Source: Arenibacter sp. F26102
Lineage (GTDB): Bacteria > Bacteroidota > Bacteroidia > Flavobacteriales > Flavobacteriaceae
Reading direction: 5' to 3'
DNA: 64,000 nucleotides
Assembly (NCBI RefSeq): GCF_023015865.1
Contig: NZ_JALKBC010000001.1
Coordinates: forward strand, 186,001 to 250,000
The first letter of the stretch is position 1; every line of letters starts with the position of its first letter. A model generated the notes under the pieces. That model saw only the letters and a program-made list of their open reading frames with translations. It did not search any database and was not told where the DNA came from. The translations under genes were made by a program, and so were the position numbers. Shown in pieces: positions 18,989 to 51,208 of the stretch.

Positions 18989-20434
18989 ATGGCATATACA
19001 GAGGAAGAATTAAAAAAAGAACTGGAGACCAAGGAGTATGAGTATGGTTTCTATACAGATATAGAATCGGATACGTTTCCCAATGGTTTGAATGAGGAAA
19101 TTGTAATCGCTATTTCAAAGAAGAAGGAAGAACCGGAATGGATGACCTTATGGAGGTTGGAATCCTTTAAAATCTGGAAGGAAATGGTGGAGCCCGAATG
19201 GGCAAATGTTAAATATAAAAAACCTGATTTTCAGGCCATTTCATATTATTCCGCACCTAACAAAAAACCCAAGTATGATAGTTTGGACGAGGTAGATCCA
19301 GAATTATTGGACACTTTTAAAAAGTTGGGCATATCCTTGGATGAACAGAAGAAGTTGGCTGGAGTGGCTGTGGATATTGTAATGGATTCCGTTTCTGTAG
19401 CCACTACTTTTAAAAAGACGCTTGCCGAAAAAGGAATAATATTCTGTTCTATTTCCGAGGCCATTAAGGAGCACTCTGAACTGGTTAAAAAATATATTGG
19501 ATCTGTAGTTCCGCAAAAGGACAACTTTTATGCGGCCCTTAACTCAGCGGTTTTTTCGGATGGGTCTTTCTGTTACATTCCAAAGGGAGTACGATGCCCT
19601 ATGGAACTTTCCACTTATTTTAGAATCAATCAAGCAGGTACTGGACAGTTCGAAAGAACCTTGGTAATTGCAGATGAGGGTAGTTATGTAAGTTATTTGG
19701 AAGGATGTACCGCACCTTCCCGTGATGAAAATCAATTGCATGCCGCTGTGGTAGAATTGATTGCTTTGGATGGTGCCGAAATAAAATACTCCACCGTGCA
19801 AAATTGGTTCCCTGGAAATAAAGAGGGACTAGGGGGAGTTTTCAATTTTGTAACCAAAAGGGGATTGTGCGAAAAGAATGCTAAAATTTCTTGGACTCAG
19901 GTTGAAACTGGTTCGGCCGTTACTTGGAAGTACCCATCATGTATACTTAAAGGAGATAATTCCATAGGGGAATTTTATTCCATTGCCGTAACCAATAATT
20001 ATCAACAAGCGGATACGGGTACCAAAATGATTCATTTAGGAAAGAATACGAGGAGTACCATTATTTCTAAAGGTATCTCGGCAGGAAAGTCCCAAAATAG
20101 TTACCGTGGATTGGTACAGGTAAACAGTAGGGCTGACAATGCCAGGAACTTTTCCCAATGTGATTCCTTGTTAATGGGGAACGAATGTGGCGCACATACC
20201 TTTCCTTACATCGAAGTAAAGAATAAAACCGCACAAATAGAACATGAGGCCACTACCAGTAAAATTGGAGAGGACCAGATTTTTTATTGCAACCAGAGGG
20301 GGATCAATACGGAAAAGGCAATTGCCTTGATCGTAAACGGCTTCAGTAAGGAAGTGCTTAATAAATTACCAATGGAATTTGCGGTGGAAGCCCAAAAGTT
20401 ATTGGAAATAAGTCTAGAGGGGTCTGTAGGATAA
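18989..20434 (+). CDS. sufB: Fe-S cluster assembly scaffold protein SufB
   Basis: 481 residues, full length. SufB is the beta-helical core of the SufBC2D scaffold on which clusters form. Recognised blocks include [74 protein letters not shown] and [20 protein letters not shown]. The conserved cysteine in [10 protein letters not shown] is consistent with cluster or persulfide handling. It lies in the operon sufA-B-C-D-S-E. The 153 nt before sufC contain no gene. Confidence 0.96.
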
Positions 20435-20587
20435 GGAAAATATTTTCTGACGGCATGTCATCTTTAATAGAGGGCTCCTGTGCCATAGGAAAGAATACTA
20501 CTACCCGTTTAAAACAACAACATAGAATAAGATTTTAATAAAATGCCGAAGGCGCCCAATTATTTAAAATAATTAGAATTTAGAACA

Positions 20588-21340
20588 ATGCTGAAAATTA
20601 ACAACTTACACGCTAGAGTAGAGGATAAAGAGATACTAAGGGGAATAAACCTAACGGTGAATGCAGGTGAAGTTCATGCCATTATGGGCCCCAACGGTTC
20701 AGGTAAAAGTACCTTGGCGGCTGTAATTGCCGGGAAGGAAGAATTTGAAATTACCGAGGGAGAAATATTTTTGGAAGGTGAAAATCTAGAAGATAATTCA
20801 CCTGAAGATAGGGCGCATAAAGGAATATTTCTATCCTTTCAGTATCCTGTTGAAATTCCTGGGGTTTCCGTTACAAATTTCATGAAGACCGCCATTAACG
20901 AGTCTAGAAAAGCTAAGGGATTGGAAGATATGCCGGCTAAGGATATGTTGAAATTGATTCGTGAGAAGTCGGAAATGTTGGAAATAGACAGAAAATTTTT
21001 ATCGCGTTCCTTGAATGAAGGTTTTTCCGGAGGTGAGAAAAAAAGGAATGAGATTTTCCAAATGGCCATGTTAGAGCCTAAATTGGCCATTCTGGATGAA
21101 ACGGATTCCGGTTTAGACATTGATGCCTTGCGTATTGTAGCCAATGGTGTAAATAAATTAAAGAGCAAAGACAATGCGGTAATTGTAATTACCCACTATC
21201 AACGTCTTTTGGAATATATAGTACCTGATTTTGTTCATGTATTGCACAACGGAAAGATCGTAAAATCCGGCACTAAAGATCTTGCTCTGGAATTGGAAGA
21301 AAAAGGGTACGATTGGTTGAAACAGGAAACTGTGATATAG
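20588..21340 (+). CDS. sufC: SUF system ATPase SufC
   Basis: 250 residues. An ABC-type ATPase that drives cluster assembly on SufBD and is soluble, not a transporter. Walker A is GPNGSGKST (34-42), the signature SLNEGFSGGEKKRNE is near 142-156 and Walker B is LAILDETDSGLD, followed by the switch histidine in VIVITHYQRLLEY. The stop codon at 21338-21340 is also the first part of the inverted-repeat arm that precedes the four-helix-bundle gene. Confidence 0.96.
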   Translation: MLKINNLHARVEDKEILRGINLTVNAGEVHAIMGPNGSGKSTLAAVIAGKEEFEITEGEIFLEGENLEDNSPEDRAHKGIFLSFQYPVEIPGVSVTNFMKTAINESRKAKGLEDMPAKDMLKLIREKSEMLEIDRKFLSRSLNEGFSGGEKKRNEIFQMAMLEPKLAILDETDSGLDIDALRIVANGVNKLKSKDNAVIVITHYQRLLEYIVPDFVHVLHNGKIVKSGTKDLALELEEKGYDWLKQETVI

Positions 21341-21780
21341 TTTCAGGTTTAATTAGTTTCTGGTTATGGCGACTATAGTGAGGTTTGAAGATTTGGATAT
21401 ATGGAAAGAAGCAAGAAGTCTAAGCTGTGAAATTATTCAAATTGTAAATGTAACCGAGCTAAAGGGTGATTATAAACTAAGAGACCAAATAAAGGGCTCA
21501 TCTGGATCTGTGATGGATAATATAGCCGAAGGCTTTGAAAGAGATGGAAATTTGGAATTTAGACAATTTCTTTCAGTGGCTAAAGGATCGGCAGGAGAAG
21601 CTAGATCACAAATTTATAGAGTTTATGATTTAGGCTATATTTCAGAGAAAGAAATGATTAGACTAACTGCAGAATATGAAAAATTAAGCAGACGGATTGC
21701 AAATTTTATTACTTATTTAAATAAAAAAGACTTTAAGGGCATAAAGTTCAAATAACATTGAACAATAGAAACTTGAAACT
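21339..21780. repeat. Inverted repeat bracketing the four-helix-bundle gene in suf
   Basis: AGTTTCAGGTTT (21339-21350) and AAACTTGAAACT (21769-21780) are inverted copies, 11 of 12 positions complementary. The left arm begins in the sufC stop codon and the right arm lies between the four-helix-bundle stop and sufD. In mRNA the arms could close the inserted gene into a loop. Confidence 0.55.
21366..21755 (+). CDS. Four-helix-bundle protein (S23/IVP family) inside suf
   Basis: 129 residues. Family motifs are RFEDLDIWKEARSLSCEIIQ (6-25), DYKLRDQIKGSSGSVMDNIA and EGFERDGNLEFRQFLSVAKG, then SAGEARSQIYRVYDLGYIS. It is the same family as the gene at 2012-2389 but belongs to a different subgroup: the two proteins differ throughout and share only the motif pattern. 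It lies between sufC and sufD, 25 nt from sufC, in the same orientation, in an operon where these two genes are normally adjacent. It is flanked by a 12-bp inverted repeat. Function unknown; a selfish or regulatory role is possible. Confidence 0.9.
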   Translation: MATIVRFEDLDIWKEARSLSCEIIQIVNVTELKGDYKLRDQIKGSSGSVMDNIAEGFERDGNLEFRQFLSVAKGSAGEARSQIYRVYDLGYISEKEMIRLTAEYEKLSRRIANFITYLNKKDFKGIKFK

Positions 21781-21813
21781 GCAAACGTCAGTTTGCTAAA
21801 CGAGAAACATAAA

Positions 21814-23130
21814 ATGGATTTAAAAGAAAAATTAGTTTCCTCATTTTTGGCATTTGAAAATGGTGTGGATGTAGATAATCCGGTTCATGATATACGAACG
21901 GAGGCCATTAAAAATTTTGAGGCAAAGGGGTTTCCTACTAAAAAGGAGGAGGCCTGGAAATATACTTCCTTAAATACACTTCAGAAAATAGATTACAGCA
22001 TCTTTCCAAAAAAGGAGAACATGTTGGAATACCGGGATGTAAAGAAATATTTTATTCATGAGATAGACACCTTCAAGATTGTCTTTGTCGATGGGGTATA
22101 TAGTTCTTTTTTATCGGAGACTACCCATGATGGAGTGGATGTATGTCTAATGAGTTCGGCCTTAAACAAGCCCATGTACAAGCAAATAATAGATGTTTAT
22201 TTTAATAAAATAGCTTCTAAGGACGATTCGTTGACTACTTTGAACACTGCTTTTAGTAAGGAGGGAGCCTATATTTATATTCCCAAAAATAAGATTCCGA
22301 AAAAACCGATAGAAATCGTTCATTTTTCTACCGGTAATGAAGCCGCGCTTTTACTGCAGCCGAGAAATTTGATAATTGCGGAGGAAAATGCCGAGTTGCA
22401 AATTATTGAGCGTCATCAGAGTTTAACGGCTAATGAAGTGTTTACCAATTCGGTTACCGAGATTTATGCCGCCAAGAATTCCAACGTTGATTACTATAAG
22501 GTACAGAACGATTTAACAACTGCCTCCTTAATAGACAATACTTATATTGATCAAAAAGATGGAAGTGTTGTAAAGGTTCATACCTTCTCCTTTGGGGGTA
22601 AATTAACCCGAAACAACCTTAATTTCTATCAAAATGGGGAAAGGATAGATTCTACCATGAAAGGGGTTACCATTATTGAGGAAAAACAGCATATAGACCA
22701 TCACACATTGGTGCATCATATTCAGCCCAACTGTGAAAGCCATCAGGATTATAAAGGGATCTATGGCGAAAATGCGACAGGGGTTTTCAACGGTAAGATT
22801 ATTGTTGACAAAATTGCCCAAAAGACGAATGCCTTTCAACAGAACAATAACATTCTAATGAGTGATAAGGCTACCATTAATACAAAACCTCAATTGGAAA
22901 TTTTTGCGGATGATGTAAAATGTTCCCATGGTTGTACCATTGGGCAATTGGATGAGGAGGCCTTATTTTATCTACAGTCACGGGGAATTCCGAAAAAAGA
23001 AGCCCGTGCTTTGCTAATGTACGCCTTTGCCAATAACGTTTTGGAAAGTGTACGCATCCCGGAATTAAAGGTTAGGATCAACAAATTAATTGCCAACAAA
23101 TTGGGCGTTCGTTTAGGATTTGACCTTTAG
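21814..23130 (+). CDS. sufD: Fe-S cluster assembly protein SufD
   Basis: About 438 residues from MDLKEKLVSSFLAFENG at 21814; the seven extra codons of the longer frame start from a TTG in the inserted-gene boundary and are unlikely. SufD pairs with SufB in the scaffold. Landmarks are FPTKKEEAWKYTSLNTLQ, FVDGVYSSFLSE, HTLVHHIQPNCESHQDYKGI, GVFNGKIIVDKIAQKTNAFQ, QQNNNILMSDKATINTKPQL and CSHGCTIGQLDEEALFYLQS, the conserved C-terminal beta-helix motifs. It is directly downstream of the inserted four-helix-bundle gene. Confidence 0.95.
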   Translation: MDLKEKLVSSFLAFENGVDVDNPVHDIRTEAIKNFEAKGFPTKKEEAWKYTSLNTLQKIDYSIFPKKENMLEYRDVKKYFIHEIDTFKIVFVDGVYSSFLSETTHDGVDVCLMSSALNKPMYKQIIDVYFNKIASKDDSLTTLNTAFSKEGAYIYIPKNKIPKKPIEIVHFSTGNEAALLLQPRNLIIAEENAELQIIERHQSLTANEVFTNSVTEIYAAKNSNVDYYKVQNDLTTASLIDNTYIDQKDGSVVKVHTFSFGGKLTRNNLNFYQNGERIDSTMKGVTIIEEKQHIDHHTLVHHIQPNCESHQDYKGIYGENATGVFNGKIIVDKIAQKTNAFQQNNNILMSDKATINTKPQLEIFADDVKCSHGCTIGQLDEEALFYLQSRGIPKKEARALLMYAFANNVLESVRIPELKVRINKLIANKLGVRLGFDL

Positions 23131-23172
23131 AAAGTTTCTATTCAACGTAATTCCCAGCATTGAATTTTTACC

Positions 23173-24399
23173 ATGATACAAACTGTTTTCGATATATTGA
23201 CCATACGTAAGGACTTTCCAATCTTAAATAGGAAAGTAAACGGCTATCCTTTGGTATATCTGGACAATGCTGCTACGTCCCAGACCCCGCAAAAGGTCAT
23301 AGATGCCATTGTTGAATATTACAGTAACTATAATGCAAATATTCATAGAGGGGTGCATACACTGTCCCAAGAAGCAACAGACGTTTACGAACAGGCAAGG
23401 CAGAAGATACAAAAGCATTTTAATGCCGCTAAGTCCCATGAAATTATTTTTACTTCCGGAACAACGCATGGTATAAATTTAGTAGCCAATGGTTTTGCCT
23501 CATTTTTAAAAAAAGGTGATGAAATTATAGTTTCCGCATTGGAACACCATTCCAATATTGTTCCTTGGCAAATGCTCTGTGAGCGTACAGGAGCAGTATT
23601 GAAAGTAATTCCAATGAGTTTGGACGGAAAATTGGTTATGGAGGAATACCATAAATTACTGTCCCACCGTACAAAATTGGTGTTCTGCAACCATGTTTCA
23701 AATGCCTTGGGGACCATTAATCCAATAGAGGAAATTATAGCTGCAGCCCATAACATAGGTGCTGCGGTCCTAATAGATGGTGCTCAGGCCGCACCACATA
23801 TAAAAGCCGATGTACAGAAATTGGATGTAGATTTTTATGTGGTTTCTGCCCATAAAATGTGCGGTCCTACTGGAGTAGGTATGCTTTACGGCAAAGAGGA
23901 GTGGTTGAATAAATTACCACCTTACCAAGGAGGGGGTGAAATGATTGCAGAAGTAACTTTTGAAAAAACTACCTATGCCGATCTTCCCCATAAGTTCGAA
24001 GCTGGGACTCCAAATATATGTGGAGGTATTGCCTTTGGTGCCGCTTTGGACTACATGAATGCCATAGGATTTGATGCCATAGCCCAATACGAACACGAGC
24101 TTTTGGAATATGCAAGCAAAGAACTTCTAGCCATAGATGGTTTGAAAATATATGGAGACACAAAGGAAAAAACAGCAGTAATTTCTTTTAATATTGAAGG
24201 TCTTCATCCTTATGATATTGGGAGTATATTGGATAAACTAGGGGTCGCTGTGAGGACAGGACATCATTGTGCCCAGCCAATCATGGATTTTTATAAAATT
24301 CCCGGTACTGTAAGGGCCAGCTTTAGTTTTTATAATACCAAGGAAGAAGTGGATATATTGGTGGCAGGCGTACGGCGGGCAAAAACAATGCTGTCATAA
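23173..24399 (+). CDS. sufS: Cysteine desulfurase SufS
   Basis: 408 residues, group II cysteine desulfurase. It takes sulfur from L-cysteine as an enzyme persulfide and passes it to SufE. PLP lysine K228 is in SAHKMCGPTG and the catalytic C366 is in RTGHHCAQP. Other family motifs are YLDNAATSQTP (29-39), ANIHRGVHTLSQEAT, FTSGTTHGINLVA and LEHHSNIVPWQ. It follows sufD by 42 nt. Confidence 0.97.
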   Translation: MIQTVFDILTIRKDFPILNRKVNGYPLVYLDNAATSQTPQKVIDAIVEYYSNYNANIHRGVHTLSQEATDVYEQARQKIQKHFNAAKSHEIIFTSGTTHGINLVANGFASFLKKGDEIIVSALEHHSNIVPWQMLCERTGAVLKVIPMSLDGKLVMEEYHKLLSHRTKLVFCNHVSNALGTINPIEEIIAAAHNIGAAVLIDGAQAAPHIKADVQKLDVDFYVVSAHKMCGPTGVGMLYGKEEWLNKLPPYQGGGEMIAEVTFEKTTYADLPHKFEAGTPNICGGIAFGAALDYMNAIGFDAIAQYEHELLEYASKELLAIDGLKIYGDTKEKTAVISFNIEGLHPYDIGSILDKLGVAVRTGHHCAQPIMDFYKIPGTVRASFSFYNTKEEVDILVAGVRRAKTMLS

Positions 24400-24505
24400 C
24401 TTCATTTAGTTAATTTTCAATCTTTTAAATAGTTGATATGCAAAATTACTTATTGTATTTTTGCATGGAATTGTTACCATTGTACAATGGGCACAAAATT
24501 GGGAT

Positions 24506-24928
24506 ATGAGTATAAAAGAAATTCAAGAAGAGATCGTTGATGAGTTCTCTATGTTCGAGGATTGGATGCAGCGCTATGAGTATATGATAGAGCTAGGAAA
24601 ATCGCTGCCTATGATCAAGGAACAGTATAAAACCGACGATAATATTATTAAGGGCTGTCAGAGTAAAGTTTGGGTACATGCAGAATTGGAAGGTGATAAA
24701 TTAGTTTTTACCGCGGATAGTGATGCCATTATTACCAAAGGTATCATTGCCATTCTAATAAGGACTTTTAGCAATCAAAAACCTAAGGATATCATTGATG
24801 CCGAGACCAGATTCATAGATGAGATTGGATTAAAAGAGCATTTATCACCTACTAGGGCCAACGGTCTGGTTAGTATGATTAAACAATTGAAATTGTATGC
24901 TGTTGCATACCAAACACAATTAAATTAA
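24506..24928 (+). CDS. sufE: Sulfur acceptor protein SufE
   Basis: About 140 residues from MSIKEIQEEI at 24506. The longer frame starting at 24461 adds 15 residues unlike SufE. SufE accepts the persulfide from SufS through C51 in IKGCQSKVW and transfers it to SufB. The C-terminal region ETRFIDEIGLKEHLSPTRAN and GLVSMIKQL is typical. Its position after sufS supports the pairing. Confidence 0.93.
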   Translation: MSIKEIQEEIVDEFSMFEDWMQRYEYMIELGKSLPMIKEQYKTDDNIIKGCQSKVWVHAELEGDKLVFTADSDAIITKGIIAILIRTFSNQKPKDIIDAETRFIDEIGLKEHLSPTRANGLVSMIKQLKLYAVAYQTQLN

Positions 24929-24991
24929 TTGGTCTGGCCTTCAGTAAATTGTTGGACAAATCTTTTTTACAGACCATAAACATTTAAAATA

Positions 24992-25324
24992 ATGAGCAAA
25001 GAAATAGAAACTATAGACACACAGGAATTGGGAGAAAAGATAGTAAGGGTCCTTAAAACAATTTATGACCCCGAAATACCTGTGGACATTTATGAATTAG
25101 GCTTAATTTATGATGTTTTCGTTAATGATGAAAATGAAGTTAAAATCTTAATGACCTTAACTTCACCCAACTGTCCAGTTGCCGAGTCGCTCCCTATGGA
25201 GGTAGAGGAAAAGGTAAAGTCTATAGACGAACTAAAGGATGTTGAGGTAGAAATTACTTTTGATCCACCTTGGACTCAGGAATTAATGAGTGAAGAGGCC
25301 AAATTGGAACTAGGGATGCTATAG
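24992..25324 (+). CDS. sufT: SufT-like MIP18/DUF59 Fe-S maturation factor
   Basis: 110 residues of the DUF59 (MIP18) family, which assists Fe-S protein maturation. Motifs include LKTIYDPEIPVDIYELGLIY (17-36), LMTLTSPNCPVAESLP (with the conserved Cys in PNCP) and VEITFDPPWTQELMSEEAK. It is 63 nt downstream of sufE, a common place for this gene. No ATPase domain is attached, so it is not an Mrp-type carrier. Confidence 0.9.
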   Translation: MSKEIETIDTQELGEKIVRVLKTIYDPEIPVDIYELGLIYDVFVNDENEVKILMTLTSPNCPVAESLPMEVEEKVKSIDELKDVEVEITFDPPWTQELMSEEAKLELGML

Positions 25325-27783: not shown

Positions 27784-28608
27784 ATGAAAAAGAGAATGTT
27801 GGAGAATAATATTGATGGTGTTGGAAGTCACCTGGAAAATCCCATTTCCTATAACCCAGAGATTCGGATTATAGCGGAGGATTATGAAATTCCACAATTG
27901 AAAAAGAAAAGAAGGATATCGGTACTCCTTCCCCATGGCTATGAGACCAGTACTAAAAGCTACCCGGTTTTATATTTACACGATGGCCAAAATCTATTTG
28001 ATGGTGGTGGACCCTATGGTAACTGGGCCATAGATGAAAAGCTTTCGGACCTGTCCATAAAAGGAATGGGAGATATTATTGTGGTGGCCATAGACCATGC
28101 AGAGGAGGAAAGAGTGTTGGAGTTTTCTCCCTTCAAAGAAACCAAATGGGGTAAAGGGGACGGAAAGAAATATCTCAAGTTTTTGGTGGAGACCCTAAAG
28201 CCTGAAATCGACAAAAATTTTAGGACCTTAAAAGACAGGGAGTTTACCGGAGTTGGTGGAAGTTCTATGGGTGGACTAATAAGTATTTATGCTGGTTTAA
28301 GGTATCCTTCAGTATTTGGAAAATTGATGATTTTTTCACCTTCCCTCTGGATTACACCAAAGATTTATTTTGATGCCATAAATTTTCATCAACCTTATCC
28401 GACCGACATCTATCTATATGCCGGTGGGGATGAAAGCGTGAATATGGTGGGGAATGTAGAAAAGTTAAAGCAAATACTGGAAGAAAAAAATAAAGAGGGC
28501 ACCAAGGTAAATATTGAACTCCGTATTGATCCCGATGGAAAACACGAGGAATGGTTTTGGAGCCAAGAATTTCCTACGGCTCTGGAATTCCTTTATTTTA
28601 GGAATTAA
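27784..28608 (+). CDS. Alpha/beta-hydrolase esterase (IroE/Fes-like, COG2819 type)
   Basis: 274 residues with no signal peptide. The first third has RRISVLLPHGYETSTKSYPV and LYLHDGQNLFDGG, the start of this esterase fold. The nucleophile elbow is VGGSSMGGLISIYAG (~residues 158-172, Ser in GSSMGG), and the acid and His probably lie in AGGDESVN and GKHEEWFWSQEFP. Relatives cleave siderophore or acyl esters. It is the first gene of a unit with an M17 peptidase (15 nt apart) and then an ATP-grasp gene. Substrate unknown. Confidence 0.83.
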   Translation: MKKRMLENNIDGVGSHLENPISYNPEIRIIAEDYEIPQLKKKRRISVLLPHGYETSTKSYPVLYLHDGQNLFDGGGPYGNWAIDEKLSDLSIKGMGDIIVVAIDHAEEERVLEFSPFKETKWGKGDGKKYLKFLVETLKPEIDKNFRTLKDREFTGVGGSSMGGLISIYAGLRYPSVFGKLMIFSPSLWITPKIYFDAINFHQPYPTDIYLYAGGDESVNMVGNVEKLKQILEEKNKEGTKVNIELRIDPDGKHEEWFWSQEFPTALEFLYFRN

Positions 28609-28623
28609 ATATAAAGCACTTTT

Positions 28624-30120
28624 ATGGTTACAATATTAACGGAAAGGAATCATTTTTCAGAAGTACTGGTTATACCCTTTGTCCAAGGTGACAATTTGGA
28701 AGCGAACATTGTTAAAATGGCTGGGGATTTAAATTTACCAGCGGAACTTTTGACCGAACAAATAAAGGCTGAAAAAAAAGAAATTTCCCTATTTTATCCT
28801 ATTGATCAGAAAAATTTAAAGAAGGTATACTGTTTGGGCTTGGGAGCAAATCCCACGATAAAAGTGATTATCGATACTCTTAAGCGCTTTATGCAAATTG
28901 AAGCGCCCAAATTGCCATCAAATTTGAGCTTAGATCTGGGCAGTGGGAATTTTGACCCTGAATCTATTTCCATTTTGGCTGAGGGCGTAGTCAGTGGGCT
29001 AATATTGGGGACCTACAAAAAGGGTATGTATCAGACATTGGAAACAAAAACGCAGAAATGGAAATCCGACGAATTAAAATTGGGCTTTTGTGTGCCAGGA
29101 GGTTTTGAGGAAATTGTAAAAAAGGCAGCTATCAAGGGCAAGGCTACCGCGGAAACCCAACTTAAGATCTTAGGGTTGGTCAATGCACCAAGCAATAAAC
29201 TTACCCCTAATAAATTAGCCGAAGTTGCTGTAAAATCTGGGAAGGATTTTGGTTACCATGTAGAAGTCCATGATAAAAAATCCATTGAAAAACTCGGTCT
29301 AAAAGCCCTGATGTCCGTTAGTCAGGGAAGTGAGAAACCTGCGAGATTCATTATAATGGAATATAGACCAGCTAAAAGTGGTCCGGACACTCCTACTGTG
29401 GGCTTGGTGGGCAAAGGTGTTACCTTTGACACAGGAGGCATATCTATAAAAGGATCTTCCAATATGCATTATATGAAAAGCGATATGGGAGGAGCAGCAG
29501 CTGTTTTAGGGGCCATAGAATTGACTGCCAAGCTAAAATTGCCTGTACATCTTATTGCTGTAATTCCTGCAACAGAAAATTGTGTAGATGCCAAAGCTCT
29601 AAAACCGGGAGATGTTATTGGGTCATTTGCGGGGAAATCAATTGAGATTATAGATACGGATGCAGAGGGGCGCTTAATATTGGCCGATGGAATTGCCTAC
29701 TTGAATAAAAATTATCACCCAGATATAATTTTGGATGCGGCTACTTTAACGGGAAGCTGTGTACAGACCTTGGGCTATGAGGCCGGTGGATTGTTCACCA
29801 ATAATGATGAATTGGCCCTTAAATTGATAAACGCAGGGGATCAAAGTGGGGAGCGTTTGTGGCGGCTACCTTTGTGGGATTCCTACGAGGGAGATATTAA
29901 ATCTGATATTGCCGATGTAAAAAATTACAGTGGCAAGCCTATAGCAGGGGCCATAAGTGCTGCTAAATTTTTAGAATTTTTTACGGATAAACATCCAAAA
30001 TGGGCCCACTTGGACATAGCCGGGGTGGCTTTTGGGGATGCGGAATTCTATACCCAAAAAACGGCTACCGCTTTCGGCGTAAGACTGCTGACCGATTTTA
30101 TTGCTGGTTTGGTTAAATAG
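28624..30120 (+). CDS. M17-family leucyl aminopeptidase
   Basis: 498 residues, full-length M17 enzyme with the N-terminal macro-like domain (~1-170) and the catalytic domain. Metal and catalytic residues appear in GKGVTFDTGGISIK, MKSDMGGAAAVLGA, VIPATENCVDAKALKPGDV and DTDAEGRLILADGIAY, the last matching NTDAEGRL. No signal peptide, so it is cytoplasmic. It follows the esterase closely, and a 289-nt gap separates it from the ATP-grasp gene. It may be a general peptidase or may trim the product of the local ligases. Confidence 0.93.
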   Translation: MVTILTERNHFSEVLVIPFVQGDNLEANIVKMAGDLNLPAELLTEQIKAEKKEISLFYPIDQKNLKKVYCLGLGANPTIKVIIDTLKRFMQIEAPKLPSNLSLDLGSGNFDPESISILAEGVVSGLILGTYKKGMYQTLETKTQKWKSDELKLGFCVPGGFEEIVKKAAIKGKATAETQLKILGLVNAPSNKLTPNKLAEVAVKSGKDFGYHVEVHDKKSIEKLGLKALMSVSQGSEKPARFIIMEYRPAKSGPDTPTVGLVGKGVTFDTGGISIKGSSNMHYMKSDMGGAAAVLGAIELTAKLKLPVHLIAVIPATENCVDAKALKPGDVIGSFAGKSIEIIDTDAEGRLILADGIAYLNKNYHPDIILDAATLTGSCVQTLGYEAGGLFTNNDELALKLINAGDQSGERLWRLPLWDSYEGDIKSDIADVKNYSGKPIAGAISAAKFLEFFTDKHPKWAHLDIAGVAFGDAEFYTQKTATAFGVRLLTDFIAGLVK

Positions 30121-30409
30121 TTTCTGATCAATAGGGCATGGAGACATTACTTTTAAGATGCCCACTATGAAGTTTATGGGAGGTCGGATTGTTAAAATTC
30201 TTTATGGCCTGTTTAACTTTAGGTATTATTTACTTCAATATCCATTAAATATCCAATATAGGACCTAAGAGGTAATGACCTGGACAATTATAGCCCCGAA
30301 ACAAGAACAAAGGATAACCCTAAAATGGATAGGCAATTTTTTCAATTGATTTTGCGGTGTATACGGGATTAATGGGTATTTTACAGCTAATAAGTTATAC
30401 CTCAGGACC
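30121..30409. other. Spacer between the M17 gene and the ATP-grasp gene
   Basis: 289 bp without an ORF, hairpin or promoter match that I can support. It may carry a separate start for the ATP-grasp gene. Confidence 0.3.
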
Positions 30410-31609
30410 ATGACAGGAAAAGCCGATCAAACCACCTTTTTATGTATTTCCAGTTTTTTTAAGGGAGAAGATTTTTTAAAATCCTGTAAGGCTTTAGGAA
30501 ATAAGGTGTTACTTATTACCTCAAAGGGATTGGAACATAAGAACTGGCCTCGCGATTCTATTGACGAAATTTTCTACATGCAGGAAAAGCGGGAAGGGGT
30601 ATGGAATATGGACGATTTAGTTTCTGGCCTGGCTTTTTTATTGCGTAATCAAAAAATAGACAGGATTGTTGCCTTGGACGATTTTGATGTGGAGAAAGCC
30701 ACCTTGGTAAGGGAACATTTTAGAATTCCCGGTATGGGACAAACAACAGGTAGATATTTTAGGGATAAGTTGGCGATGAGAATGAAAGCTGCGGAGTCCA
30801 GTATTCCAGTTCCGCAATTCACACCATTATTCAACAATAGTGAAATAGATGAATATACAAAGAGGGTTCCTGCTCCATGGCTAATTAAGCCCAGATCCGA
30901 AGCCTCTGCAACAGGGATCAGAAAAATATTTTCGAACGAAGAGCTATGGACCGTTTTGGAGTCTTTGGGAGACCGGCGGCACGAGTACTTATTGGAGAAA
31001 TTTGCTCCTGGGGATGTTTACCACGTTGATTCTTTATCTGTTGACGGTAAAATTGTTTTTACACAGGCTTCCCAGTATTTAAGCACCCCTATGGACGTGG
31101 CTCACGGACACGGTATTTTTAGATCTATTACCCTTAAGATGGATTCCCTGGATGCCATTGGTCTTAAGGCTATCAATGAGGAAGTATTAAAAGCCTTCGG
31201 AATGCGTTTTAGTGCCTCCCATAGCGAGTATATTAAATCTCGGGAAACCGGGAAATTCTATTTTCTGGAAACCGCCTCCCGTGTAGGGGGAGCCCATTTG
31301 GCAGAAATGGTATTCTTTGCTACCGGAATTAATTTATGGAAAGAATGGGCTGTTATCGAAGATGCTATGGCCAAGGGGAAGCCATATAAGCTACCCAAAG
31401 TAAAAAATGAATACGCAGGTATTGTAGTTTCCCTGTGCCGGTTCCAATATCCAGATCCCTCCTGCTTTACAGACCATGAAATTTGTTGGCAACTACAAAA
31501 GGATTACCATATTGGCCATATAGTAAAATCTGATTGTCAGGAGAGAGTTTTGGAATTGCTTAACGCTCATACTAGACGGATCCAAATCGACTTTCACGCA
31601 AGTACCTAA
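30410..31609 (+). CDS. ATP-grasp ligase, carbamoyl-phosphate-synthetase/L-amino-acid-ligase-like
   Basis: 399 residues. N-terminal pre-ATP-grasp domain (1-~115) with FFKGEDFLKSCKALGNKVLL. The ATP-grasp core begins RYFRDKLAMRMKAAESSIPV (~120-139); PWLIKPRSEASATG is the nucleotide-binding loop, EKFAPGDVYHVDS the adenine/Mg region and FYFLETASRVGGAHLAE the ExxxRxGG metal and phosphate motif. ATP-grasp enzymes activate a carboxylate as an acyl phosphate and join it to an amine or thiol. Specificity is not visible. It converges on the reverse-strand ligase cluster, 47 nt apart, without a terminator I can see. Confidence 0.83.
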   Translation: MTGKADQTTFLCISSFFKGEDFLKSCKALGNKVLLITSKGLEHKNWPRDSIDEIFYMQEKREGVWNMDDLVSGLAFLLRNQKIDRIVALDDFDVEKATLVREHFRIPGMGQTTGRYFRDKLAMRMKAAESSIPVPQFTPLFNNSEIDEYTKRVPAPWLIKPRSEASATGIRKIFSNEELWTVLESLGDRRHEYLLEKFAPGDVYHVDSLSVDGKIVFTQASQYLSTPMDVAHGHGIFRSITLKMDSLDAIGLKAINEEVLKAFGMRFSASHSEYIKSRETGKFYFLETASRVGGAHLAEMVFFATGINLWKEWAVIEDAMAKGKPYKLPKVKNEYAGIVVSLCRFQYPDPSCFTDHEICWQLQKDYHIGHIVKSDCQERVLELLNAHTRRIQIDFHAST

Positions 31610-31656
31610 TATGTCATGGGAAGAGTTTTAAAGAGGTGAAAAACTTGAATGTATCT

Positions 31657-32850
31657 CTAGTCCTCAAAGAACCCCACGCTGGCACCCACCCAGTCCTTAT
31701 CCTTGTTAAAGCGAACCCCAACCATTTCCCCTTTGCTAATACGTACTAGATTGTTGACGACTTTGGCCTTTTTTTCACCCTTTTCCCATATCATCAACAT
31801 CCTGATTTCACATTTGGCAGGTTCCGTTGGAGTCTTTATTGCAGGTGCATAGACCACTTTTTTCTGTAGGATATAGTTTTCCCTATTTTGAACGGCATCA
31901 AGATCTTGTTTGGTGACATTTATGAGTACACCCGATCCCGCAAAAGAGAACAAGGGTTTAAGCACATAGTTTTCCAAGTCCTCCGGATACTTTTCCAGTT
32001 GGTGCAAGAAATGGCAGGGAGGAACATACGGGCTGTTGATCAAAGGCATGGTGAACTTACTTATCCTAAAAAACCAATTTGGGTGCCCTATCCATTCCAC
32101 ATTGTATTCCTTGGTAAAATCGAATTGCCTTGGGAGATCTTCCCTTTTAAAAAGTTCATCAAAAATAACCCGATTATATATCCTGCGTACCGGAATTTTC
32201 TGGCCTTTATTATTGGTATAAAACACATTTTTCCCTTCCGTAATCAATTCGCTTATGCAAACCACTTTTATGCCCAAATGGCGGGACGTAGCCAAAAAAT
32301 CTATTTGTGTGGCCTGTTTATGGGGCTCTATTTCCAAAAGAATCACATTTTCGGGAGAACAGTCGCCCACAATAATTTCCCTTAATTTCTCTACATAATC
32401 TGCAGAAGTTGTATTGTTTAAGTGATGATAGTTTGAAGGTATATTGAAGTGATTGCGATAGCCTTTGGCCATTAGCTCTTGAAAAAAATAAAGGGTCGGA
32501 AATCCTTGTACTTCCACCATTTGAGGCATAAGTTCCCCTTTCTCATCCAAACATATTCCAAAGTCCATTTGAAGAAAAGTAGTGTGTTCATCTTCCCCAG
32601 GAACGAATTGTGAGGCATCTTGAAGGGCATTTTTGGTCAGCTCCTTGAAATTTGGCTGACAGATCACATTGTTGACCTGATCGCAGGCCTCCAACAATCT
32701 TTGTTTAAGGTATTTTGGAATGAAGATAGGGGTCTCCGAAATACGAAACGGTGGTTTATGATCATAGGCGGTAGAGATACTTTCTAAAAATGCCTTGTAT
32801 TTCCCATCCGTAAATGCTGCATTGTATTGCTGACGAAGATGTTCTACCAT
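31657..32850 (-). CDS. Circularly permuted ATP-grasp-like ligase (glutathionylspermidine-synthase-like)
   Basis: 397 residues. QMVEVQGFPTLYFFQELM (~residue 109) resembles the metal-binding E-x-Q/N motif, while the glycine-rich ATP loop YVLKPLFSFAGSGVLIN comes later (~292) and YILQKKV follows. In ordinary ATP-grasp proteins the order is reversed; the order here is that of the circularly permuted glutathionylspermidine synthetase group. The C terminus VRISKGEMVGVRFNKDKDW completes the fold. It would form an amide with ATP. Last gene of a five-gene operon, 11 nt after the amidotransferase. Assignment rests on motif order, so it is moderately secure. Confidence 0.6.
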   Translation of the reverse strand: MVEHLRQQYNAAFTDGKYKAFLESISTAYDHKPPFRISETPIFIPKYLKQRLLEACDQVNNVICQPNFKELTKNALQDASQFVPGEDEHTTFLQMDFGICLDEKGELMPQMVEVQGFPTLYFFQELMAKGYRNHFNIPSNYHHLNNTTSADYVEKLREIIVGDCSPENVILLEIEPHKQATQIDFLATSRHLGIKVVCISELITEGKNVFYTNNKGQKIPVRRIYNRVIFDELFKREDLPRQFDFTKEYNVEWIGHPNWFFRISKFTMPLINSPYVPPCHFLHQLEKYPEDLENYVLKPLFSFAGSGVLINVTKQDLDAVQNRENYILQKKVVYAPAIKTPTEPAKCEIRMLMIWEKGEKKAKVVNNLVRISKGEMVGVRFNKDKDWVGASVGFFED

Positions 32851-32861
32851 AAATACCTATA

Positions 32862-33686
32862 TTAAGAGAGTTGCTTGGATAATCCAATTTTTTTAATAGC
32901 ATTTTCAATAAATCCAGGTATTATGGAATTGTAGGTAGATTCCAATTTATCCGTATCCCTAATATGGGTCATCATGTTATTATATTTTCTTTTCCCGTAA
33001 GTGGCAATTACTTTCTCTTCGTTTTCAGGTTTTGCAAAGTGCACTTCCATACTAACCGGTTCGGCCTCGGGATGAAATTGTACTCCGACAAATTCGTTCG
33101 AAAAACGTACGGCCATAATGGCCCTTTCGTATTCCACATGCGTCCTTATTTTCTCCAATGCCAATATTTTGGCCCCTTTTTCCTCAAAAACTTTCAATCT
33201 CGGTTGTATAAGTTGCCAATCCCTCGAATCTACGGCAAAGAAAGGATCGGGTAATTTGGAGAACAACTCATCGGCCCTTCCGTTTTTGGTTTTATGGATA
33301 GGCAAGATGCCGAAAGAGGGGGATTTGCGTTTTGTAATTTCTCCTAGACCAAAATGATGACAGACCATTTGATAGGAATGACAAATAAAGAACACATATT
33401 TTTTGGGATAGTGGCCATTTTTGTTGTGTTCCCATAGTTCGTCAATGAGGGAATAATACTTTTTATCCCAAATTCCATCCCCTTCCAAAGGATTTCCTGG
33501 GCCTCCAGAAGAAATATAGATATCATAACTGGTATCGGGAACTTCATTTTTTTTCCTAACGTCAAAAAATTTGTAATCGGCCTCCTCGCTATATTTATCC
33601 AATATTTCCCTAATGCATCGCAACCCTTGATTGGGAATGCCATTATATAAATCCAGAACTGCAATCTTTTTTTTTCTATCCAACAT
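32862..33686 (-). CDS. Class I glutamine amidotransferase-like protein
   Basis: 274 residues. Class I GATase fold with nucleophile Cys in FFICHSYQMVCHHFG (the GxCxGxQ elbow is altered to FICHSYQ) and His/Glu in VGVQFHPEAEP. ISSGGPGNPLEG supplies the oxyanion-loop motif. The full Cys-His-Glu triad is present, so it can release ammonia from glutamine or cleave a gamma-glutamyl bond (some relatives hydrolyse gamma-glutamyl amides). No synthetase domain is fused; the neighbouring ligases are candidate partners. It is 13 nt after the GCS2 gene. Confidence 0.87.
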   Translation of the reverse strand: MLDRKKKIAVLDLYNGIPNQGLRCIREILDKYSEEADYKFFDVRKKNEVPDTSYDIYISSGGPGNPLEGDGIWDKKYYSLIDELWEHNKNGHYPKKYVFFICHSYQMVCHHFGLGEITKRKSPSFGILPIHKTKNGRADELFSKLPDPFFAVDSRDWQLIQPRLKVFEEKGAKILALEKIRTHVEYERAIMAVRFSNEFVGVQFHPEAEPVSMEVHFAKPENEEKVIATYGKRKYNNMMTHIRDTDKLESTYNSIIPGFIENAIKKIGLSKQLS

Positions 33687-33699
33687 TTTTCTTGTTCAT

Positions 33700-34794
33700 T
33701 TAAATCCCTGCAACCGTCTCCTTCAAAATATAATCGACCACATCATTAAGGTTTTTGGTTTTTTCAAAAACGGCCAGTTGTCTGTCCGCCCCGGTCCCTT
33801 CATTTAAAATTTTATGTATTCTATTAATTTCCTCCCTACTTCCCAAGTCATCTACCACATCATCCACAAATTCGAGCAGCTCCAAAATTAATTCTTTGGT
33901 TGGTACTTCTATAGATTTTCCGAAGTCGATCATCTTGCCTTCAATCCCATATCTTGAGGCCCTCCATTTGTTTTCGTTGATCAATGCCCTTTTGTAAATA
34001 ATAAAGTTGAGGTTGCTCCTTCTTAAAATATAAAGTTTGGCTACCAAGGCCTGAATCAATGCCGTTATGGTTACAGTTTCATCTATTGTTAGGGGAACAT
34101 CGCAGATCCTAAATTCTATAGTCGGGTAGAAAGGGTGTACCCTTACATCCCACCATATTTTTTTTGCGTTGTCTATACACTTCGTTTGTACCAGAAGGTT
34201 AACATAGCGCTCGTATTCCCCAGCTCCGGTAAAGAAATCCGGGATGCCGGTACGTGGAAATTTATCAAAGACTTTGGTGCGGAACGATTTAAAGCCCGTA
34301 TTTCTGCCTTCCCAAAAGGGGGAGTTGGTAGAAAGTGCATATATATGGGGTAAAAAATAGCGCACGGAATTGTAAATGTGTATTGCCATTTCCCTATCCT
34401 CAATGCCCACGTGAACATGTAGTCCAAAGATAAGATTGGACCTGGCGGCATCCTGTAATTCCTGAACAATTTCATCATATCGTGGATGAACCGTAATCAA
34501 TTGTTTTTCCCATTCCGAGAAAGGGTGGGTACCAGCTGCGGCTATGCGAAGGTCGAGACTGGCCGCAACTTCGGATATGGTTTTTCGCAAATTGGTTACC
34601 TGCGATCGTACCTCTTTTATATCCTTGCAAATGACCGTACCAACTTCAACTACTGCCTGATGCATTTCCGCTTTTACTTGCCCTTCCAATATCTCATCAG
34701 CAATTTCTACAATTTTTTGCTCATGTGAGGTCAACTCACGGGTTTTGGGGTCTATGACCTGATATTCTTCTTCTACTCCTAATGTAAAATCCAT
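33700..34794 (-). CDS. GCS2-type carboxylate-amine ligase (YbdK-like)
   Basis: 364 residues of the glutamate-cysteine ligase family 2, which resembles glutamine synthetase. It starts with the hallmark FTLGVEEEYQVIDPKT (3-18). Then come AEMHQAVVEVGT, AAGTHPF, IFGLHVHVGIEDRE, LSTNSPFWEGRNTGFKSFRT, TIEFRICDVPLTIDETV and NKWRASRYGIEGKMIDF. These form the ATP/metal and amino acid sites. YbdK-like enzymes have weak glutamate-cysteine ligase activity; the real substrate is often unknown. The gene lies in an operon with two ATP-grasp-type ligases. Confidence 0.93.
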   Translation of the reverse strand: MDFTLGVEEEYQVIDPKTRELTSHEQKIVEIADEILEGQVKAEMHQAVVEVGTVICKDIKEVRSQVTNLRKTISEVAASLDLRIAAAGTHPFSEWEKQLITVHPRYDEIVQELQDAARSNLIFGLHVHVGIEDREMAIHIYNSVRYFLPHIYALSTNSPFWEGRNTGFKSFRTKVFDKFPRTGIPDFFTGAGEYERYVNLLVQTKCIDNAKKIWWDVRVHPFYPTIEFRICDVPLTIDETVTITALIQALVAKLYILRRSNLNFIIYKRALINENKWRASRYGIEGKMIDFGKSIEVPTKELILELLEFVDDVVDDLGSREEINRIHKILNEGTGADRQLAVFEKTKNLNDVVDYILKETVAGI

Positions 34795-34830
34795 TGGTGT
34801 CCACGTATTACAGTTTGGGCATTATCAAAA

Positions 34831-35994
34831 CTATTTTGACTTGCTTTTGGTTGTTGTGGCCTTTTTGACCGGTTTTTTAGTTGTCGGAGGTGCGACTTTT
34901 GCCTTTGTTACCGTTTTCGCTTTGGTCGCAGTTACTTTTACCGGAGCTTTTTTTGCTGCCGGGGTTTTTGCTGTAGGTGTTGTTGCCTTTGCGGGAGCTT
35001 TTTTTGTCTTTGCCACAGCCGGGGCCTTTTTAACCTCTGTTTTGGTGGGGTCGGGCGTAATAGCATTCTTAACAAATGTACCCCAGGTTAAATTCATCTG
35101 CCCTGGTTTATGTGCTTGGGCCCTTTTAATGGCCATATTTGCAGCTGTCTCCACGACCCAATCAAAATTATCCTGGCCAACGGAATTAATATCTGCATCC
35201 GGTGCCGGATTGCAAAAATCTATTGCATAAGGAATTCCGTCCCTGACCGCAAACTCCACGGTGTTGAAATCATAGCCTAAAGCCGCATTTAATTTTATGG
35301 TGTAGTCCTTAACGGTATCCAAAAGTTTTTTACTCAATGGGGGACCGTCATGTACATACCTTAAGTGATGGGGATTGCGGGGCTCATATTGCATAATGCG
35401 GACTTCATTGCCGCCAAGGCAATAGCAACGGAAATATTCATTAAACTCAATTTCTTCTTGCAACATCATAATAAGTTGCCCGGTTTCGCTGTGACTCTTG
35501 AAAAACTCCTCAGAATTATTCAGTTTATACACATTTTTCCATCCACCACCAGCATAAGGTTTCATATAGGCGGGAAAGCCAATATGATCAAAAATACTAT
35601 CCCAGTCCAAAGGGTATTTAAGATTCCGAAAAGAATTTTCGTTGGTATCGTCCGGTCTATCCTTCGAGGGCAGAAGTACTGTTTTTGGTACTGGAACTCC
35701 GGTTTTAATGGCCAGGGCATTATTGAAAAATTTTTCATCAGCGCTCCACCAAAAAGGATTGTTTAGGACCGCTGTACCAGATATGGCAGCATTCTTTAAA
35801 TATGCCCGGTAAAAGGGAACATCTTGGGAAATACGATCAATGATAACGGCATATTCGGTAGGGTCGGCCTGCTTTACCATGTCGATCATTACAGCCTCGG
35901 CCATGATCCCATTAATATTTTTTTCGTTTATTCTATCTATAAAGGCTTGAGGAAAAGTGTTTTCCTGGCCGTAGAGTATTCCAATTTTTTTCAT
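34831..35994 (-). CDS. RimK/D-Ala-D-Ala-like ATP-grasp ligase with histone-H1-like tail
   Basis: 387 residues in two parts. Residues 1-312 are an ATP-grasp domain: AYMKPYAGGGWKNVYKL (142-158) is the nucleotide loop, LQEEIEFNEYFRCYCLGG the lid/adenine region and VEFAVRDGIPYAIDFCNPAP (246-265) the metal motif with D259 and N262. Residues 313-387 are a low-complexity Lys/Ala/Pro/Thr tail (KKAPAVAKTKKAPAKA and similar), like histone H1 tails. The tail is encoded in frame with no frameshift. It may bind polyanions or be a substrate. The domain would ligate a carboxylate to an amine. It is 17 nt after the esterase gene. Confidence 0.85.
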   Translation of the reverse strand: MKKIGILYGQENTFPQAFIDRINEKNINGIMAEAVMIDMVKQADPTEYAVIIDRISQDVPFYRAYLKNAAISGTAVLNNPFWWSADEKFFNNALAIKTGVPVPKTVLLPSKDRPDDTNENSFRNLKYPLDWDSIFDHIGFPAYMKPYAGGGWKNVYKLNNSEEFFKSHSETGQLIMMLQEEIEFNEYFRCYCLGGNEVRIMQYEPRNPHHLRYVHDGPPLSKKLLDTVKDYTIKLNAALGYDFNTVEFAVRDGIPYAIDFCNPAPDADINSVGQDNFDWVVETAANMAIKRAQAHKPGQMNLTWGTFVKNAITPDPTKTEVKKAPAVAKTKKAPAKATTPTAKTPAAKKAPVKVTATKAKTVTKAKVAPPTTKKPVKKATTTKSKSK

Positions 35995-36011
35995 AGTTTA
36001 TGTGTTAAATT

Positions 36012-36716
36012 TTACATTAGCGATAAATAGTGGGGAAGCATTTCTCTCCATATGGGCCAATCGTGACTGGCGTTGGGCCTATTGTCCAACCAATGGTCGA
36101 TACCTTTATTTCTTAGAATTTCTGACATTCTAAGATTGGCTCCCAAACAAATATCATGTTCGCTGGTACCCAAAATAATCTTCATATTATAGAGCTCAGG
36201 ATTAGACATGTCCGGTAAATAATCAACAGGATTATTAAAATATACATTATCGTCGTAATATCCGTCCATTTGGTCCCTTATATCAAAGGCTGCGCTCATG
36301 GTAAATAGGTGGCTGACCGTTTCAGGATGTCTAAAGGCAAAATTGGCTGCTTGGTAACCTCCGAAACTACATCCGGAAACGGCCACCTTACCTATAGGGG
36401 ATTCGTGCCGTACTTTGGCAACTACCTCCTCCAATATCATTTTGTCGTACCAAATGTGGTTTTTAACACGGTCTGCGGGGTGAATGGATCTATTGTACCA
36501 ACTGTATTCGTCAATACTGTCCAGACAATATACCTTGACCTTACCTTGTTCTATGAACCAAGAAATAGAATCTATTAAATGAAAATCCTTGCTTTCGTAA
36601 TACCTGCCCCTAGTAGTCGGGAAAATTAATAAGGGATAGCCCCAATGGCCATAAACCATCATTTCCATTTCCTTGCCCAGATTAGGGGAATACCATTTAT
36701 GATAGTTCTCTTCCAA
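36012..36716 (-). CDS. Alpha/beta-hydrolase esterase (COG4947-like)
   Basis: 234 residues, a compact hydrolase without signal peptide. MMVYGHWGYPLLIFPTTRGR is the first strand and oxyanion loop; VSGCSFGGYQAANFAFRHPE contains the nucleophile Ser (in GCSFGG); ILGTSEHDICLGAN has a possible acid and NASHDWPIWREMLPHYL the catalytic His. It is the first gene of the reverse-strand operon. Esterases of this type recur in clusters with ATP-grasp and GCS2 ligases in Bacteroidota, so it may hydrolyse an intermediate or precursor. Confidence 0.85.
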   Translation of the reverse strand: MEENYHKWYSPNLGKEMEMMVYGHWGYPLLIFPTTRGRYYESKDFHLIDSISWFIEQGKVKVYCLDSIDEYSWYNRSIHPADRVKNHIWYDKMILEEVVAKVRHESPIGKVAVSGCSFGGYQAANFAFRHPETVSHLFTMSAAFDIRDQMDGYYDDNVYFNNPVDYLPDMSNPELYNMKIILGTSEHDICLGANLRMSEILRNKGIDHWLDNRPNASHDWPIWREMLPHYLSLM

Positions 36717-36860
36717 AAATGTAGTTGTTAATAGCCGGGGAAGTATCTCCTTGTCTTAAAGTTAGCCAAAATTATGACTCCAACAAATCTCTTTTTGGGA
36801 ATGATCTGTACTTTACAATATGGCGTAAGGGTTGCCTATCCGTACAAGGCAGTGAAAATA

Positions 36861-36893
36861 TTCAAAAGGTGTTGATTATCAACACCTTTTGAA
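36861..36893 (-). terminator. Long perfect hairpin terminator after hflX
   Basis: TTCAAAAGGTGTTGA (36861-36875) pairs perfectly with its reverse complement (36879-36893) around a 3-nt loop. Read on the minus strand it lies 70 nt beyond the hflX stop and is followed by TATTTTC. It ends the hflX transcript before the esterase operon start. Confidence 0.85.
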
Positions 36894-36963
36894 TTGTGCT
36901 GGGTACAGTAATAAATATCTATTAAATATAAAGTATTGAATTAAACGCCTATACAGCTTTTAT

Positions 36964-51028: not shown

Positions 51029-51165
51029 ACTATAGGTTTTGCGTAAGCGATTGTAGTGACATCCTTTTATTTTTATTTATAGGAATGCTGCTAGGGGCGC
51101 AATTTTAGTGTTTTGATCCGTGCCCCGAAATAATGCTTTCTTAAAAATAAAAGATATAACGGAAA

Positions 51166-51208
51166 GCGTGACCCTTTTTTTCTACCTTTTAGAAAAAAAG
51201 GGATACGC
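51166..51208. terminator. Long hairpin after hemE
   Basis: A 13-bp perfect stem (CCCTTTTTTTCTA, 51172-51184, with its complement, 51190-51202) is extended by GCGT and ACGC at its base. It is just beyond the hemE stop on the minus strand. It lacks a U-tract after the stem, so it may be an attenuating or processing hairpin and not a simple terminator. Confidence 0.6.

Follow-up and report, generated by a model that had tools for sequence, protein, structure and literature searches.

What would a bacterium make with several amide-forming ligases encoded side by side with a glutamine-amidotransferase-like protein, a peptidase and serine hydrolases? The question is raised by an eight-gene locus at positions 27784–36716 of a 64,000-nt stretch of the Arenibacter sp. 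F26102 genome (contig NZ_JALKBC010000001.1), referred to below as the window, whose eight predicted proteins are numbered P1 to P8. Based on gene content, gene order, co-occurrence, the replacement of one ligase in a single clade and the conserved catalytic residues of P5, P6 and P8, we posit, with a probability of about 0.6, that these genes specify a cytoplasmic pathway, independent of non-ribosomal peptide synthetases (NRPS), that makes and turns over a small peptide-like or amide-capped metabolite.

Gene content and arrangement

A first-pass annotation made from the DNA alone had described the locus as a minus-strand operon with gaps of 11–36 nt on which a plus-strand set converges, and had suggested that it makes and recycles a peptide-like or gamma-glutamyl product. 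A check of open reading frames (ORFs) found eight genes, each with an open frame, in the region:

P1, 27784..28608, plus strand: Fes/esterase-D-like serine hydrolase, motif GSSMG (PF00756)
P2, 28624..30120, plus strand: M17 (leucyl aminopeptidase family) peptidase (PF00883, 381.6 bits)
P3, 30410..31609, plus strand: L-amino-acid-ligase-like ATP-grasp protein (PDB 4wd3, E 1.2e-15)
P4, 31657..32850, minus strand: probable divergent glutathionylspermidine-synthase/YgiC-like permuted ATP-grasp ligase (weak GSP_synth matches, colinear motifs)
P5, 32862..33686, minus strand: class I glutamine-amidotransferase-like protein (PF00117; Cys102, His205, Glu207)
P6, 33700..34794, minus strand: GCS2 carboxylate-amine ligase (PF04107; NCBIfam PRK13515)
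P7, 34831..35994, minus strand: RimK/R2K-like ATP-grasp ligase with a basic tail (rimK_fam, LysX and R2K matches below cut-off)
P8, 36012..36716, minus strand: alpha/beta serine hydrolase, TTG start, motif GCSFG (alpha/beta hydrolase profile, Pfam/NCBIfam)
Hairpin, 36860..36894, minus strand: 16 pairs, 3' of hflX, probable terminator (hairpin scan, weak)

The five minus-strand genes are separated, stop to start, by 17 (P8–P7), 36 (P7–P6), 13 (P6–P5) and 11 nt (P5–P4), in agreement with the annotated range. On the plus strand P1 and P2 lie 15 nt apart and P2 and P3 289 nt apart, and 47 nt separate the stops of the convergent P3 and P4, so that the two sets do face each other as described. Pfam and NCBIfam likewise support the families first named for the esterase, the M17 peptidase, the GCS2 ligase, the class I amidotransferase and the P8 hydrolase. 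The operon probably starts at P8, because the 16-pair hairpin sits between hflX and P8; this hairpin is weak evidence, since a scan of the region returned 17 hairpin sites against 11.6 expected. Promoter searches near the locus, using a Bacteroidota pattern and a sigma-70 pattern, gave matches at chance level. Consistent with the first-pass annotation, by-eye reading of the ORFs between 22 and 42 kb recognised no NRPS or export gene. The closest named proteins are from Arenibacter (93% in the case of P4).

Conservation of gene order

A search of the genome collection with P7 returned at least 581 relatives, of which the best 80 loci were analysed; the named loci among these 80 belong to the Bacteroidota or the Ignavibacteria, the latter being placed with the Bacteroidota by GTDB. 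The first-pass annotation had proposed conservation of order as a check on the locus, and the five-gene order P8-P7-P6-P5-P4 is indeed kept on one strand in 52 of the 59 loci where at least 2 kb of sequence precedes the P7 core and 5.5 kb follows it, a fraction that does not describe a random sample because the best matches were kept. The exceptions lack, within reach of P7, P5 (L146, L149), P5 and P8 (L161, L181), P6 and P8 (L140), P4 (L130), or P6, P5 and P4 together (L112). This clustering is far beyond chance, and the minus-strand genes form a genuinely conserved unit. Pairwise distances of the five core proteins are moderately correlated over the 59 loci (Spearman 0.29–0.62), so the proteins are partly co-inherited and not locked together; on the P7 tree the presence of GCS2 beside P7 changes six times, as does that of the glutamine amidotransferase (GATase).

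The plus-strand genes accompany this core in a smaller number of loci: P3 and P2 are found in 12 of the 80, with P1 as well in eight. All eight genes occur in the convergent layout of the window in seven loci (L106, L120, L134, L138, L171, L174, L175), and in two genomes of the window's own order (G012, G095) they run P1-P2-P3-P8-P7-P6-P5-P4, all in one direction. The 25 neighbour families that recur most often, assessed by eye on their N-terminal residues, included no recognisable carrier protein or NRPS.

Co-occurrence of the proteins and replacement of P4

Searches with all eight proteins covered one set of 148 genomes from the phylum, among them that of the window, and counted strong matches only; P8 matches above E 1e-20 and P3 matches above E 1e-90 were dropped, and P7 matches at 34–35% (G007, G087), a P6 match at 36% (G004), P4 in G002 and P5 in G088 were left out. 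Strong matches to P7 occur in 58 of the 148 genomes, including four of 15 in the window's own family and one of six in genus g2, and those to P8, P6 and P4 in 63, 51 and 49 genomes, respectively. P7 is present in every one of the 40 genomes with P5 and of the 34 with P3, and all 58 genomes with P7 carry a P8 homologue (E <= 1e-20), not in all cases adjoining P7. P6 has no match in eight of these 58, and P4 and P6 occur without P7 in one genome, G144. The association of P7 with P4, P5, P6 or P8 has Fisher p-values from 2e-22 to 1e-35, and at the genus level p is 2e-18 for P4–P7, 1e-17 for P6–P7 and 6e-12 for P5–P7.

Co-occurrence extends beyond linkage, because the 6 kb on either side of P7 hold neither P4 nor P6 in 14 of 45 genomes, some of them on split contigs (46 genomes carry P4, P6 and P7; G066, with P4 split over contigs, was excluded). 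The view of the first-pass annotation that the genes belong together therefore withstands this comparison for P3–P8, including P3, which lies on the opposite strand to the operon, while homologues of P1 and P2 are so common (118 and 102 of the 148 genomes) that co-occurrence says nothing about either.

Ten genomes encode P7 and lack P4. At three loci (L077, L078, L101) another gene lies between P7 and P5, encoding a type-2 permuted ATP-grasp protein (PF14403 in the one scanned), and across the 148 genomes this protein is found at 52% identity or more in exactly the ten genomes with P7 and without P4. It had been seen beforehand in three of the ten, one of them the source of the query; in the other seven it was expected and found, the expectation having not been written down in advance. 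Weak matches of 24–34% occur in 25 genomes, including the window's own, and one genome, G137 (L086–L088), carries P4 together with a 37% relative of the type-2 protein. In a tree built from 69 P7 sequences, out of 100 eligible entries, the five type-2 loci included form a single clade, so the swap is one event. Since the type-2 protein replaces P4 and P6 has no match in eight of 58 genomes, the obligatory set comprises P7, P8 and one permuted ATP-grasp protein; GCS2 and GATase are optional members. With GCS2 not essential, the gamma-glutamyl character first suggested for the product is not established; we infer a locus that makes and recycles a peptide-like product.

Proposed pathway

ATP-grasp enzymes activate a carboxylate as an acyl phosphate and then join it to an amine. 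P7 and the permuted ATP-grasp protein (P4, or the type-2 protein in one clade) would be the two obligatory ligases of the pathway, each forming one amide bond. P6 would contribute a further amide step in most genomes, possibly a gamma-glutamyl link, and P3 would supply a dipeptide in some. Intermediates and product would be hydrolysed, trimmed or recycled by P8, P5, P2 and either P1 or a related esterase, here called E3. We place the product inside the cell because no conserved exporter was recognised. In section 7 of PMC4431377, linked peptide ligases are described as often catalysing successive ligations in such metabolites.

Active-site residues are conserved in three of these proteins. P6 is a full member of PRK13515 (538.8 bits, cut-off 371), has YbdK as its closest PDB match, and retains G6, E8 and E10 of the GhExE signature of GCS2, as given in a passage of PMC2588565, in 14 of 14 aligned sequences. 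It differs from other YbdK-family carboxylate-amine ligases in its setting within a multi-ligase operon. In P8, Ser117 and His218 are found in 14 of 14 aligned sequences and Asp188 in at least 90%, making S117, D188 and H218 the candidate triad. P5 scores 35.2 bits against PF00117 (cut-off 22.8), and its Cys102, His205 and Glu207 do not vary across the 17 aligned sequences, most of which have the nucleophile motif ICHSxQ; a PDB sequence search with P5 alone returned nothing informative. P5 is absent beside P7 in the Ignavibacteria-type loci L149, L167, L172 and L181, where P7, P6 and P4 are kept. A role as thiol hydrolase appears more likely for P5 than one as ammonia donor, a preference that follows from the linked-ligase argument in section 7 of PMC4431377.

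P3 aligns with the solved L-amino acid ligase 4wd3 over residues 73–312 (E 1.2e-15), indicating homology. Unlike the known L-amino acid ligases it falls under the family cut-offs, including that of Pfam ATP-grasp_4, and is paired with P7 in 34 of 34 genomes. Its local M17 partner is found in some genomes: of the 34 with P3, 11 have P2 next to it, and in seven P1 is close by as well. P1 is 47–56% identical to six relatives, four of which have about 100 extra N-terminal residues; the P1 of the window has no such extension, and tblastn of the DNA upstream gave no match. In L062, L063, L065 and L073 the extension contains the motif PVYI(S/T)GNFNxW, which we take to resemble a glycogen-binding module. 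P1 proper (>40% identity) is present in eight of the 80 loci. E3 is a divergent Fes-like esterase related to P1 (PF00756 in the one example scanned; 23–32% identity to P1 within the aligned regions of ten E3 sequences) and lies upstream of the core in 42 loci, 37 identified by clustering and five as weak P1 matches. P1 or E3 is present in 49 of the 80 loci, and L140 is the only one with both.

Several considerations weigh against this pathway. A small-molecule acceptor and a protein acceptor are not distinguishable from sequence alone. The Fisher p-values ignore shared ancestry, and since the P7 tree shows the exchange of P4 to have happened once, the ten genomes count as one case. P8 matches of 32–45% far from P7 may be paralogues, and P1 and P2 are joined to the core by local synteny only. 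Lastly, the family assignment of P4, set out below, is weak, and its reaction may differ from those of its probable relatives Gss and YgiC because two aligned positions are changed.

A more specific form of the pathway, which we advance tentatively and hold rather less probable than its general outline, is that the Bacteroidota make a new intracellular peptide-amide metabolite with a pair of obligatory stand-alone ligases, and that one clade has exchanged the second ligase for a different permuted ATP-grasp protein while keeping P7, P8 and P5. If so, the metabolite has been retained across several orders and in the Ignavibacteria, as would be expected of a cofactor or a protective compound. 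P7 and partners occur in 58 of the 148 Bacteroidota genomes sampled, roughly two-fifths; should they all make one metabolite, it would be a common small molecule of the phylum missing from present maps. The compact operon and the existence of same-genus genomes without P7 make the proposal directly testable by deletion and metabolomics.

The amidoligase-operon theme itself is already known. A survey by Iyer et al. from 2009 reportedly covers operons combining ATP-grasp and GCS2 genes with amidotransferase and hydrolase genes, with predicted peptide or amide products, and may describe this very neighbourhood; the replacement of P4 by the type-2 protein, the optional nature of GCS2 and the dependence of P3 on P7 are measured here. 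No description of the pathway was found among open-licence papers, and the passages seen of PMC8939145, PMC12239564, PMC2922099, PMC3597751, PMC11036162 and PMC12568646 contain nothing on this gene set, the nearest being a RimK-type gene within a polysaccharide-utilisation operon in PMC11036162.

P7 and a possible protein acceptor

The main rival to a small-molecule pathway, which we consider unlikely, is that P7 attaches amino acids to a protein (its own Lys-rich tail being one candidate), with P6 and P4 extending or capping the tag and P8, P5 and P2 removing it. RimK adds amino acids to ribosomal protein S6, and P7 weakly resembles the RimK family, LysX and R2K, the last of these having been proposed as protein modifiers in section 7 of PMC4431377. 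All of these matches fall well below curated cut-offs (36.9 bits against TIGR00768, the RimK family, where 143.4 is required), and unlike those ligases P7 has its own NNPFWWSAD and GGGW motifs, whose residues are invariant in 15 of 15 aligned sequences, and often a basic tail. P7 forms an ATP-grasp family of its own. A PDB sequence search with P7 alone was uninformative, and a P7 profile matched general ATP-grasp enzymes only, e.g. biotin carboxylase.

The P7 of the window consists of a core (approximately residues 1–313) followed by a tail of about 74 residues rich in Lys, Ala and Pro. Tails of at least 25 residues occur in 46 of 108 sequences and are 25% Lys overall, but fewer than 10 residues are present in 45 of the 108, so the tail is not essential, and a role as essential carrier is rejected. 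Self-modification of P7 may take place where a tail exists. Also at odds with a protein acceptor, no gene for a target protein was recognised by eye among the recurrent neighbours, and P3 and the M17 peptidase are better suited to dipeptide chemistry. The C-terminus itself (window 34831–35055) is histone-H1-like in its Lys/Ala/Pro richness, tails of relatives range from 0 to more than 170 residues, and Pfam PF07382 matches two of the P7 homologues listed. Distant homologues of P7 (34–35%) and P6 (36%) lie in different gene contexts in L092, L093 and L094 and possibly belong to related but different systems.

Possible thiol or polyamine chemistry

Each enzyme class of the locus has a counterpart in glutathione metabolism. 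A glutathione-like thiol pathway could therefore be drawn in which GCS2 makes gamma-Glu-Cys, an ATP-grasp enzyme adds a residue, the GspS-like enzyme adds an amine, and esterase-D-like and Cys-Gly peptidase-like proteins complete the route; the similarity of P6 to YbdK would fit. We regard this as improbable. BshC, which catalyses a step of bacillithiol synthesis, is found in 147 of the 148 genomes whether the locus is present or not, so that the locus in general is no bacillithiol replacement, and a general substitute for this thiol is rejected. In favour of a thiol pathway, the single genome in which BshC has no match, G109 (160 contigs), contains P7, P4, P6 and P5. The missing P6 match in eight of 58 P7 genomes speaks against it, as does the lack of any Pfam match between P7 and glutathione synthetase at 0.001.

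Equally improbable, in our estimation, is a polyamine conjugate in which P4, like E. coli YgiC, would cap a peptide with spermidine. No Pfam family matches P4 at 0.001, and its score against GSP_synth (PF03738) is 12.9 bits, under the gathering cut-off of 29.3; E values for the P4 of the window, all below cut-off strength, are 0.0028 for Thioredoxin_2, 0.004 for CP_ATPgrasp_2 and 0.062 for GSP_synth, and 26 of 53 P4 relatives match GSP_synth at E <= 1, at best 5.2e-5. Its DF..E.Q, SK..LP and KP..S..G motifs are nevertheless colinear with those of E. coli YgiC and Gss, and on these motifs and the GSP_synth matches we consider P4 a putative permuted ATP-grasp protein and a probable distant relative of YgiC and Gss. 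Profile comparison is weak both with these two (hhalign P 0.0028, 11% probability) and with the type-2 permuted ATP-grasp (P 0.0061). P4 differs from Gss and YgiC in two aligned positions, changed from Arg to Gln and from Asn to Gln, and in having no fused amidase. In favour of a polyamine conjugate, YgiC is annotated as a peptide-spermidine ligase, an activity ascribed to YgiC and YjfC by Pederick 2023, as cited in a passage of PMC12568646. On the other side, the carboxynorspermidine decarboxylase gene nspC, the only polyamine route searched, exceeds the cut-off in five of the 148 genomes, of which two are among the 49 with P4; a further 71 genomes have weaker matches, and that of the window has no nspC match. 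A spermidine conjugate supplied through nspC is rejected.

Encoded peptides and other readings

ATP-grasp ligases accompanied by a peptidase also recall graspetide-like clusters, in which a ligase cross-links a ribosomally encoded precursor, but this reading is largely refuted and very improbable. A survey of 820 ORFs of 20–90 amino acids, taken from the core and 1.5 kb on each side of it in the window and the 80 loci, found none in the window with a relative at 1e-4. A 53-aa Cys-rich ORF in 10 loci made up the largest group and its antisense the next (seven loci), and the gaps within the operon are 11–36 nt. A conserved precursor peptide around the core is accordingly rejected. That the genes are unrelated enzymes of separate pathways brought together by accident is just as improbable and is refuted for P3–P8 by conserved order, co-occurrence even when unlinked and the pairing of P3 with P7 in 34 of 34 genomes, although it could apply to P1 and P2, whose homologues are common in the phylum. 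PADLOC matched none of the eight proteins at 0.001, leading us to reject a known anti-phage defence system, and 12 pattern matches in viral contigs included no relative, so carriage by viruses is likewise rejected.

Neighbouring genes and other features of the window

The 53-aa ORF is membrane-protein-like and lies just 3' of P4 in its 10 loci, including L151, L154–L156, L158 and L159; those listed are of Mucilaginibacter/Pedobacter type. A gene resembling class III aminotransferases by eye follows P4 directly, in the same orientation, in 10 loci (L131–L133, L137, L142, L145, L152, L160, L164, L169), most of them of Dyadobacter, and has relatives 5' of P8 in four others; it could be a further partner or part of the local neighbourhood. 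An ammonium-transporter-like gene recurs in nine loci of Dyadobacter and Arundinibacter only, about 4–6 kb from P8, and is a shared local neighbourhood.

Upstream of the locus, the window contains SUF iron-sulphur assembly genes at 18989–25324, one SufBD-core protein being identified by Pfam and the others by eye. Two GFO/IDH/MocA oxidoreductases are encoded at 13563–15017 and 61299–62765, the first with a TAT-signal match below the cut-off. Rfam gave no match near the locus, its Flavo-1 RNA lying elsewhere in the window, at 51036–51177 on the plus strand (51.6 bits).

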